Assembly (NCBI RefSeq): GCF_902498825.1
Contig: NZ_LR701459.1
Location: 1,494,001-1,558,000 of the forward strand
Direction: 5' to 3'
Source: Rhizobium sp. EC-SD404
Lineage (GTDB): Bacteria; Pseudomonadota; Alphaproteobacteria; Rhizobiales; Rhizobiaceae
DNA: 64,000 bases
Made by a program: the position numbers and the translations under genes. Shown here one piece after another: positions 54,650-59,241 of this stretch. The notes below the pieces were generated by a model. That model did not search any database. It had not been told where the DNA came from and saw only the letters and a program-made list of their open reading frames with translations. Within the stretch, counting starts at the first letter, position 1. Each line of letters opens with the position of its first letter.

Positions 54650-57011
<2,362 letters not shown>

Positions 57012-57037
57012 AGCAAACCATCCGATGCGAATTGGAG

Positions 57038-57068
57038 CGCCGTTCCCGGCTTCGGGGGCGGCGTTTTT
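57038..57068 (+). terminator. Terminator of the aspartate aminotransferase gene
   Basis: CGCCGTTCCCG pairs with CGGGGGCGGCG (two G-U pairs) across the loop GCTT, followed by TTTTT. It lies 27 bp past the stop codon. Confidence 0.9.
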
Positions 57069-57091
57069 AATTGATGGCCCGAATTTCGGGC

Positions 57092-57208
57092 AAAAAAAGA
57101 GGGCCACGGGAAAACCCGGGCCCTTTTAAGTTTGAAGGTCAAAACCTCCAGAGGGGAACAGCAAGATGCGATGACGTGGGAGGAAAGTAGTCACCGTGTG
57201 CATCTGCT
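57092..57208 (-). ncRNA. Candidate AbcR-type (alpha-r15) small RNA
   Basis: Read on the minus strand, a possible promoter (TTGCCG, 17 bases, CATATC) would start transcription near 57208. The transcript would carry two pyrimidine-rich anti-Shine-Dalgarno motifs, CCTCCC at 57183-57178 and TTCCCC at 57158-57153, the second at the base of CCTC-TG-GAGG. It ends in a strong intrinsic terminator: AGGGCCCGGG pairs with CCCG-T-GGCCCT, followed by CTTTTTTT to 57092. The size (about 117 nt), the two anti-SD motifs and the position beside the lsrB/vtlR-type gene match AbcR RNAs, which repress ABC-transporter mRNAs with Hfq. The identity is from memory of the family. Confidence 0.7.
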
Positions 57209-57332
57209 ATAGGCGATATGATGCTTCGGTAGGCAAACGGCAAGTTCTTGCCGCGCATTTCTGCCATGCGCTCTGCACATATCGCATGGAAATTGAGCAA
57301 AGCCGACTTGGCCTCAACCCTCGACGGTGCGT

Positions 57333-58235
57333 CTAATAGTTCCAATTCCGGGCTTTTGAGATCAGAAAATCGCGAAATGCCTTCAGCTTTGCGGCGTTCT
57401 TTATTTCTTCCGGATAGCAGAAATAGGTGTCGAAAGACGGGGCGTCCGCCGTCGTTTCCAGCTGCACGAGACCGGAATCGCGGCCGACCATGTAGTCGGG
57501 CAACATGGCGATGCCGATGCCCATCTGAACCGCGCGCTTCACAGACGTGAGATTGTTGATCTGCAGATGCGGGACACGTGGATTGTCGGCGGTCCGACCG
57601 GCGACTTCAAGCGAGTTCAGGCCGAGAAGATAGCCGGGTGCCGGTTCGCCGAAGGTGATGATGCGGTGGCCGTCGAGATCGTGCGGCGACTTCGGTTCGC
57701 CGAAGCGGTTCAGGTAGCCGGGCGACGCATAGACGTGCAGATGCACCGTGAAGAGCTTGCGCTGGATGAGGTCCGGCTGTTGCGGCTGACGCAGGCGGAT
57801 CGCGCAATCGGCGTGGCGCATGTTCACATCCAGCTCCTCATTGTCGAGGATCAGCTGGAGCTGCATTTCCGGATAGAGCTCCAGGAACTCCTGGACCTTC
57901 TCGGTTAGCCATCCCTGGCCGAGGCCCACCGTCGTCGTCACGCGCAGCTTGCCGCTGGGCTTGTTGCTGGTCTCCGTCAGCCGGGCGCGCACCGTTTCCA
58001 GCTTGAGCAGCACGTCATGCGCCGTGTGATAGAGCATTTCGCCCTGTTCGGTAAGGATCAGGCCGCGGGCGTGACGGTGGAACAGCTTGGTGCCGACTTC
58101 ATGCTCAAGCGCGCTGACCTGGCGGCTGATCGCGGACTGCGACAGATGCAGGGCCTCCGCCGCGTGGGTAAACGAACCCGCCTCGGCGGCTGCGTGAAAA
58201 ATCCGCAGCTTGTCCCAGTCCAATGGAGCTACCAT
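57333..58235 (-). CDS. lsrB: LysR-type regulator, LsrB/VtlR-like
   Basis: A 300-residue LysR protein. The winged helix is in residues 6-65 (LRIFHAAAEAGSFTHAAEAL, LSQSAISRQVSALEHEVGTK); the effector domain follows (LRVTTTVGLGQGWL, DCAIRLRQPQQPDLIQRKLF). The start MVAPLDWDKLRIFHAAAEAG and the neighbouring trxB and lrp agree with LsrB of Sinorhizobium and VtlR of Brucella/Agrobacterium, which control envelope, oxidative-stress and AbcR-linked functions. Only two cysteines are present (144 and 273), so the multi-cysteine redox sensing reported for S. meliloti LsrB may not fully apply. The candidate AbcR RNA lies just downstream. Confidence 0.9.
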   Translation of the reverse strand: MVAPLDWDKLRIFHAAAEAGSFTHAAEALHLSQSAISRQVSALEHEVGTKLFHRHARGLILTEQGEMLYHTAHDVLLKLETVRARLTETSNKPSGKLRVTTTVGLGQGWLTEKVQEFLELYPEMQLQLILDNEELDVNMRHADCAIRLRQPQQPDLIQRKLFTVHLHVYASPGYLNRFGEPKSPHDLDGHRIITFGEPAPGYLLGLNSLEVAGRTADNPRVPHLQINNLTSVKRAVQMGIGIAMLPDYMVGRDSGLVQLETTADAPSFDTYFCYPEEIKNAAKLKAFRDFLISKARNWNY

Positions 58236-58266: not shown

Positions 58267-59241
58267 TTATTCGGCCGCTTCCGCGATGTGGACGTAGCCT
58301 GCAAGGTATCGTTCCACCTCGAGCGCTGCCATGCAGCCCATGCCCGCTGCCGTAACGGCCTGTCGATAGATGTCGTCTGTGACGTCGCCCGCGGCGAAGA
58401 TACCCGGCACGTCGGTCGCCGTCGAATCCGGTGCGCTCCAGAGATAGCCGTTCGGCTTCATCCGGAGCTTGTCCTTGAACAGATCCACGGCCGGCGCGTG
58501 CCCGATCGCGACGAAGACGCCATCGACAGCCAGATCCTTGATCTCGCCCGTCTGCGTGTCCTTCAGCCGAACGCCCGTGACGGACGGGGGCATCGGATGC
58601 TTGGCCGGCGTCCCGGTGATCTCGTCGATGACGGCGTTCCACACGACCTTGACGTTTTCCTTGGCGAAGAGACGGTCCTGAAGAATGCGCTCCGCACGAA
58701 AACCCTCGCGCCGGTGAATGAGCGTGACGGATTTCGCGAGATTGGAAAGATAGAGCGCTTCCTCGACGGCGGTGTTGCCGCCCCCGACGACCGCGACGTC
58801 CTTGCCGCGATAGAAGAAGCCATCACAGGTGGCGCAGGCAGAGACGCCGAAGCCCATGAAGGTCTGCTCCGTCTCGATGCCAAGCCATTTCGCCTTGGCC
58901 CCGGTGGCGATGATCAGGGCATCGGCCGTGAAGACCTGCCCACCATCGGTGCGCACGCGGAAGGGGCGGCGGTCCGTCTCGACTTCGACGACGAGGTCGT
59001 TGACGATTTCGGCGCCCACATTGATGGCCTGATTGAGCATCTGCTCCATCATCCAGGGGCCTTGGACCGGATCGGCATAGCCAGGATAATTCTCCACATC
59101 CGTGGTGATCATCAACTGGCCGCCCTGTTCCATGCCGGCGATCACGATTGGCTGCAGCATGGCGCGGGCTGCGTAGATGGCGGCCGTGTAACCCGCGGGG
59201 CCGGAGCCGATGATCAGGACCGGCGTATGACGCTCGCTCAT
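58267..59241 (-). CDS. trxB: Thioredoxin-disulfide reductase
   Basis: A 324-residue low-molecular-weight flavoenzyme transferring electrons from NADPH to thioredoxin. FAD-binding GSGPAGYTAAIYAARA at the N-terminus, redox-active disulfide CATCDG, NADPH-binding VVGGGNTAVEEALYLS and the C-terminal FAD motif GIFAAGDVTDDIYRQAVTA are all present. It lies 31 bp upstream of lsrB on the same strand, so both may be co-transcribed. Divergent from the Lrp gene. Confidence 0.96.
   Translation of the reverse strand: MSERHTPVLIIGSGPAGYTAAIYAARAMLQPIVIAGMEQGGQLMITTDVENYPGYADPVQGPWMMEQMLNQAINVGAEIVNDLVVEVETDRRPFRVRTDGGQVFTADALIIATGAKAKWLGIETEQTFMGFGVSACATCDGFFYRGKDVAVVGGGNTAVEEALYLSNLAKSVTLIHRREGFRAERILQDRLFAKENVKVVWNAVIDEITGTPAKHPMPPSVTGVRLKDTQTGEIKDLAVDGVFVAIGHAPAVDLFKDKLRMKPNGYLWSAPDSTATDVPGIFAAGDVTDDIYRQAVTAAGMGCMAALEVERYLAGYVHIAEAAE

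Follow-up and report, generated by a model that had tools for sequence, protein, structure and literature searches.

A single-copy AbcR1-type small RNA gene of the ar15 family beside lsrB in Rhizobium sp. EC-SD404

Three described systems, cited here and below from the available sections of the respective papers, come closest to the RNA gene analyzed in this study. AbcR1 of Sinorhizobium meliloti (SmelC412, ar15, RF02345) is encoded in an intergenic region next to lsrB and combines an LsrB box at -61 with three hairpins, a first anti-Shine-Dalgarno motif (aSD1) in the first loop, and a second one (aSD2, UUCCCCUC) behind it (PMC3712013, PMC8844928, PMC7143759). LsrB binds the promoter PabcR1 in this species, and both aSD1 and aSD2 serve regulation there (PMC8844928). 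In Agrobacterium tumefaciens, the gene order is trxB-vtlR-abcR, and VtlR binds the abcR1 promoter (PMC7486931). For Brucella abortus, AbcR1 and AbcR2 are described with the motifs M1 (CUCCCA) and M2 (GUUCCC); they are located on separate chromosomes, and one of them is controlled by VtlR (PMC5461406). A link between AbcR RNAs and vtlR in Agrobacterium and Brucella had been named in the first-pass annotation of the locus, which was made from the sequence alone. VtlR binds or controls a copy in both (PMC7486931, PMC5461406), with the refinement that the VtlR-controlled copy of B. abortus is the one named abcR2 (PMC5461406).

Within the 64-kb stretch of DNA that was analyzed (hereafter, the window), the same layout is found: as for S. 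meliloti AbcR1, the RNA gene is intergenic next to lsrB, the box is at -61, the RNA has three hairpins, and its first loop carries aSD1, with aSD2 behind it. The trxB-vtlR-abcR order is common to the window and A. tumefaciens, and both B. abortus motifs are present. As to differences, the S. meliloti locus comprises AbcR2 as a further copy in tandem and adjoins an ArsR gene, whereas the window has one copy, with aatA beside it; aSD1 reads CUCCUCCC in S. meliloti and UUCCUCCC in the window. A. tumefaciens likewise carries a tandem abcR2, which the window lacks. We consider it very likely that the locus represents a single AbcR1-type abcR gene that is activated by LsrB and silences uptake and metabolic mRNAs via its anti-Shine-Dalgarno motifs, with transcription, binding of LsrB and Hfq, and silencing being carried over by analogy from the studied relatives.

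The identity of the RNA gene was established by an Rfam covariance-model search of the 64-kb window. An AbcR-like unit of approximately 117 nt on the minus strand of the aatA-lsrB gap had been proposed, and Infernal indeed returned a match to RF02345 (ar15, AbcR family) at 57095-57208 (-) with 97.6 bits (gathering cut-off 40, E 3.6e-19), which covers the full length of the model (positions 1-112 of 112). At the gathering level, this was the only Rfam match listed in the window; an overlapping match of lower score, from a family that belongs to the same clan, was omitted. Matches of ylbH, CC2171, ncS54, and CPEB3 on the same stretch were below threshold (E 0.17-0.69) and were taken as chance. 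Our own model R1, built from 19 rows with the window sequence among them, scored the RNA with 111.8 bits. Furthermore, the impression that only one copy is present was corroborated for the whole genome (4.2 Mb), in which the covariance model found one ar15 match, and a search for the core 20-mer that tolerated up to 3 mismatches gave a single site. The stretch clearly belongs to ar15 as a single-copy member of the AbcR1 type, looks intact, and is of a known kind. It leaves the known nature of the family unchanged but places LsrB/VtlR and AbcR, a well-studied pair, in a single-copy lineage, in which the effect of one AbcR RNA might be readable without a sibling.

Table 1. Coordinates of the features of the lsrB-abcR locus within the window.
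Feature	Position	Strand	Basis
aatA (aspartate aminotransferase, putative name from the first-pass annotation), convergent downstream neighbor	55809..57011	+	ORF
ar15/AbcR1-type small RNA gene, ~117 nt	57092..57208	-	Rfam match, fold, model R1; 5' end placed near 57208 on the basis of the model match
Intrinsic terminator, stem-loop and seven U	57092..57124	-	sequence, fold; helix 4: 9/10 pairs with both-side changes
A/U-rich single-stranded stretch 5' of the terminator, candidate Hfq site	57125..57132	-	fold; role from PMC3712013 (available sections)
Second hairpin SL2	57133..57150	-	fold; 98.8% of cells paired, hardly variable
Anti-Shine-Dalgarno motif 2 (M2/aSD2) UUCCCC, between SL1 and SL2	57153..57158	-	sequence; unpaired in fold
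5' hairpin SL1, loop with aSD1	57160..57208	-	fold; helices 1 and 2: 11/13 pairs with both-side changes
Anti-Shine-Dalgarno motif 1 (M1/aSD1) CCUCCC, SL1 loop	57178..57183	-	sequence; unpaired in fold
-10 element CATATC	57215..57220	-	CAT at -12 to -10 in 105/105 box-bearing copies
-35 core TTG	57241..57243	-	TTG at -35 to -33 in 105/105 box-bearing copies
Putative LsrB/VtlR (LTTR) box GCATGGCAGAAATGC, -61 to -47	57255..57269	-	conservation at the same place in relatives
lsrB/vtlR, LysR-type regulator, presumed activator	57333..58235	-	ORF
trxB (thioredoxin reductase), upstream of lsrB	58267..59241	-	putative name: gene order in PMC7486931 (available sections) and first-pass annotation

The 117 nt are predicted to fold into three hairpins, the last of which is the intrinsic terminator. 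The folding energy of -43.3 kcal/mol compares to a mean of -26.94 (sd 3.43) for dinucleotide shuffles (z -4.77), and 0 of 200 shuffles folded as well. In the predicted fold, nt 20-33 and nt 50-58 are unpaired, and these stretches hold aSD1 and aSD2, respectively. The two anti-Shine-Dalgarno motifs, already noticed in the first-pass annotation, are conserved as well: TTCCCC (aSD2) was kept in all 135 copies of relatives, taken from the best 80 of 577 LsrB relatives, the aSD2 region GTTCCCCTCTG was invariant in 30 aligned copies, window included, and CTCCC (aSD1) was kept in 103/105 copies that bear an LsrB box, the window's among them. Likewise, the seven Ts of the terminator are present as annotated (plus-strand A at 57092-57098), behind the stem. 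A terminator scan of 56900-57500 returned one terminator-like site compared to 0.9 on average in shuffles and, therefore, provides no evidence when taken alone. By eye, a terminator-like hairpin with five T is also visible after aatA (57034-57068, +), facing the end of the RNA gene; this hairpin is absent from the listing of the terminator scan.

Covariation in relatives, named at the outset as a check on the RNA, was found for most of the helices. Across 136 aligned copies, 117 of them distinct, pairing was found in 98.3% of cells and 20 of 30 pairs change on both sides, with 0 of 500 shuffles as high and slid versions of the structure reaching 29.7-59.9% paired, although these pair counts rest on an alignment that was fitted to the model and is biased towards the structure. 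For SL2, 0 pairs with both-side changes were found in the same model-fitted alignment. Columns 4/62 of the 5' hairpin illustrate a compensated change, forming A-U in three rows and U-A or U-G elsewhere; the A of the A-U pair is present in the window, L031, and L032.

Upstream of the RNA gene, a simple sigma-70 consensus scan detected no promoter. This null result was set aside, since comparison with relatives revealed conserved -35 and -10 elements. The plausible promoter of the first-pass annotation was thus missed by the consensus scan and recovered through its -35 and -10 cores, which match those of 105 box-bearing copies. A putative LsrB box, called with up to 2 mismatches to GCATNNCWGNNNTGC and a start between -63 and -59, occurs in 105/136 copies, i.e., those from the best 80 of 577 loci together with the window's own, which bears it. 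Box, TTG, and CAT of the window stand in the same register as in the other box-bearing copies; at some columns, e.g., -46 and -44 to -42, the window promoter has a letter other than the most frequent one. For LsrB, a consensus of GCAT-N3-TG-N3-T, spanning -61 to -49, has been published (PMC8844928, available sections). The center of the window box has AG where this consensus and the S. meliloti box have TG, corresponding to one mismatch (A for T), and A is found at this place in 17/105 box-bearing copies. The exact pattern GCATGGCWGNNATGC, which was composed after seeing this site, occurs a single time in the genome, at the -61 box. With one mismatch, 20 further strand hits were obtained in the whole genome vs. 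10 for the backward control. Six such sites (L113-L118) were considered as further LsrB-controlled RNAs and rejected, as all of them lie inside stop-to-stop frames of at least 90 aa and show no gathering-level Rfam match.

For the comparison of genomic neighborhoods, the best 80 of 577 relatives from an LsrB protein scan were kept. The window LsrB shares 99% identity with the protein of Rhizobium albus and 80-93% with those of the other 79 kept loci, the nearest of which is Pararhizobium haloflavum (93%). A distance of 124 nt separates the RNA gene from lsrB/vtlR, which lies upstream on the same strand, and at least one abcR copy was found downstream of lsrB on its strand in 80/80 of these loci. 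The proposed position beside a presumed LysR regulator is shared by all of the best 80 loci, and the 80/80 synteny holds for near relatives only, because the loci were chosen by LsrB closeness. By tblastn, trxB was detected upstream of lsrB in 79/80 of the loci, and the record of the remaining one (L041) ends before that position. On the other side, aatA follows the RNA directly, within 90 nt, in the window, R. albus, and P. haloflavum. It is directly beside abcR in L031 and L032 and in none of the other 78 loci as fetched. In 76/80 loci, a protein related to an ORF found behind abcR of L093 is encoded within the next 2 kb; we take it for a putative old-yellow-enzyme relative. L091, one of the 76, has in addition aatA at a distance of about 2.2 kb. 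L060 and L085 lack this protein, with aatA at a distance of about 1 kb.

Several observations on individual loci are worth recording. In R. albus (L031:5901-6284), there are about 320 nt more between lsrB and the LsrB box, with a 15-nt box identical to that of the window; by eye, the extra sequence may contain a small reverse-strand membrane-protein ORF. In Rhizobium sp. FKY42 (L058:5900-9350), about 3.4 kb more separate lsrB from the abcR pair than in the near relative L088, and the first abcR copy retains the box. In LsrB itself, Cys144 and Cys273 are present in 81/81 sequences (the best 80 of 577 and the window); S. meliloti LsrB responds to oxidation of two cysteines (PMC8844928, available sections). 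Column 236 holds a cysteine in 64/81 and a valine in three rows, including the window (57333-58235). Furthermore, L040 and L075, titled Arenimonas and Marinicella, contain trxB-lsrB-abcR loci and are placed in the tree with Ciceribacter and Martelella, and their taxon labels are probably wrong.

A covariance model from 19 copies, the window's included, was used to find abcR copies in the 80 loci. It revealed 135 copies in addition to the window's own, all of them downstream of lsrB on the same strand, with one copy in 28 loci, two in 50, three in 1, four in 1, and none in 0. Tandem copies, ascribed to several rhizobia in the first-pass annotation, were accordingly found (at least two in 52/80), with the refinement that a single copy is not rare, because 28 of the best 80 loci have one. 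Seven Agrobacterium-titled loci (L076, L083, L087, L090, L093, L095, and L096) contain two copies and L045 (A. albertimagni) one. In a wider search of 120 genomes, including that of the window, 59 had an ar15 match at E <= 0.001 and 46 at the curated score; 61 of the 120 gave none at this setting, in which stricter search filters are prone to missing weak matches. The relatives G016, G055, and G065 showed six, four, and three ar15 matches, which are spread over several contigs in G016 and G055. A quick tree of LsrB and TrxB grouped the window, R. albus, and P. haloflavum, each with one copy, in a clade (SH-aLRT 100). The tree requires at least 4 changes between single and multiple copies and, because it is unrooted, gain and loss of copies are not separable.

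Among the 136 copies, the presence of the LsrB box goes along with that of aSD1. CTCCC ahead of aSD2 was found in 103/105 box-bearing vs. 5/31 boxless copies (best 80 of 577 loci and window); these counts are not independent, because the underlying events are few and the boxless copies are confined to certain groups, namely Agrobacterium and its like, Neorhizobium, Pseudorhizobium, related Rhizobium-titled loci, Martelella, Allorhizobium, and L062. With 30/31, nearly all boxless copies are the distal of two, the exception being the second of four copies in L062. Across the 81 loci compared, promoter type and motif content go together. Speaking against a general rule, S. meliloti AbcR2 retains both motifs (PMC8844928), and ar15 duplicates are described as sharing an aSD motif located in a region that varies in most of them (PMC3712013), according to the available sections of both papers. 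The coupling was not met in the part of the literature covered, and priority is not claimed. We put forward, as a tentative proposal that we regard as somewhat doubtful, that the abcR genes of these relatives are of two coupled kinds, one with LsrB box and aSD1 and a boxless distal one from which aSD1 has mostly been lost, that the lineage of the window keeps only the former, and that, via aSD1, the regulon may extend past ABC systems to TRAP (DctP) and tripartite tricarboxylate (TctC) receptors with GGGAGGA starts. If the lineage indeed keeps only the box-bearing kind, one LsrB-controlled RNA would therefore carry the whole AbcR task in it.

Other arrangements of copies were seen as well. L062:6012-6738 contains four tandem copies and L100:2009-2596 three, all of which are boxed except L062 copy 2. 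Moreover, in 17 loci of one Rhizobium tropici-like group (L063, L064, L066, L068, L072, L073, L080-L082, L084, L089, L097-L099, L101, L105, and L108), both tandem copies have the LsrB box and aSD1, unlike S. meliloti, whose second copy is assigned to RpoH1 (PMC8844928, available sections).

The distribution of these features bears on what kind of gene the window retains. With only one copy present, and with abcR2 likewise belonging to ar15, it could be argued that the window holds an AbcR2-type copy (RpoH-driven and stress-induced), the AbcR1-type copy having been lost. This is very unlikely, since an LsrB box at -61, CATATC at -12, and aSD1 are all present in the window, whereas boxless copies in the best 80 of 577 loci are the distal of two in 30/31 and lack CTCCC in 26/31. 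That the gene is a relic, which keeps the family fold but is no longer expressed, might be suggested by its single copy and by a 5' hairpin unlike that of other clades. Yet the change in this hairpin is compensated (A-U at columns 4/62), the terminator, the promoter cores, and the motifs are all preserved intact, and R. albus has the same box despite about 320 nt more to lsrB, which makes a relic exceedingly improbable.

The location of the RNA on the lsrB strand, 124 nt downstream, is also what would be expected if it were mainly processed from a long lsrB 3' UTR. We give this origin hardly any credence, since the promoter cores and the box stand at a fixed distance from the RNA, whereas the distance from lsrB to the first copy ranges from about 100 nt to 3.5 kb.

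Based on homology to the described systems (PMC8844928, PMC3712013, PMC7486931, PMC5461406, and PMC7143759, available sections), the sigma-70 promoter is most likely activated by LsrB, the product of the adjoining gene, upon binding to the box at -61 to -47. The predicted transcript of about 110-120 nt (~117 nt in the window) is presumably held by Hfq, as in the relatives, and aSD1 UUCCUCCC in the 5' loop and aSD2 UUCCCCUC behind it would pair with the ribosome binding sites of transcripts that encode solute-binding proteins and metabolic enzymes and block their translation. The RNA would thereby probably damp the production of nutrient-uptake proteins. Homology gives good support to regulation by LsrB and to the repression of transporter mRNAs, the latter also named in the first-pass annotation.

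Two tests addressed potential targets. In the first, the start regions of 42 genes for ABC solute-binding proteins were compared with those of 30 short-chain dehydrogenase genes, and the duplex energies of neither aSD1 nor aSD2 differed between the two gene sets (one-sided p 0.59 and 0.36); the reversed motifs showed no difference either. The former set comprised 42 matches to four ABC solute-binding families, with L146 below the cut-off of its family, and 30 of the 46 matches to short-chain dehydrogenases served as controls. In both sets, the start codons were a guess made by script. The second test, chosen after this null result, considered ORFs behind GGGAGGA-N3-10-ATG, GGGAGGA being the complement of UCCUCCC in aSD1. 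From 86 sites (9 backward), 19 were dropped as shorter than 80 aa, leaving 67 ORFs. As a control, another strong Shine-Dalgarno sequence, AAGGAGG, gave 62 rows (14 backward), one of which was dropped for a shared Shine-Dalgarno sequence; 36 of the remaining 61 were shorter than 80 aa, leaving 25 ORFs. For GAGGGGA, the complement of aSD2, 10 of 29 rows (4 backward) were shorter than 80 aa, leaving 19 ORFs. The first ATG was used as the ORF start in some searches and the ATG with the longest ORF in others.

Solute-binding proteins, as assigned by Pfam, were encoded by 20/67 ORFs behind GGGAGGA vs. 1/25 behind AAGGAGG (Fisher p 0.0055 one-sided, 0.010 two-sided), with the limits that the AAGGAGG control has more doubtful ORFs and that paralogues may share start sites by descent. 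Restricting the comparison to Pfam-matched ORFs gave 20/63 vs. 1/20 (two-sided p 0.018). The 20 proteins comprise six DctP, four TctC, two NMT1-like, and eight of ABC-type families; L196 (weak hits only) and L255 (LacI-type regulator) were not counted. Within the 42 ABC solute-binding-protein genes of the duplex test, GGGAGGA was found in 4 and AAGGAGG in 0, the chance of at least 4 being approximately 0.005 if 4,000 genes are assumed. Behind GAGGGGA, 0/19 ORFs encode solute-binding proteins and 4/19 other transporters. The duplex and heptamer tests disagree; together, they hint at an aSD1 regulon of periplasmic receptors, and the excess of GGGAGGA could also serve an ar14/NfeR1-type RNA, as NfeR1 of S. 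meliloti likewise uses anti-Shine-Dalgarno motifs to act on mRNAs of solute-binding proteins (PMC8844928, available sections). The heptamer comparison yields a list of candidate targets that can be tested, e.g., the solute-binding-protein genes with GGGAGGA starts in L215, L258, L267, L275, and L294, and one gene (L217, identical to L346) is common to its GGGAGGA and GAGGGGA sets.
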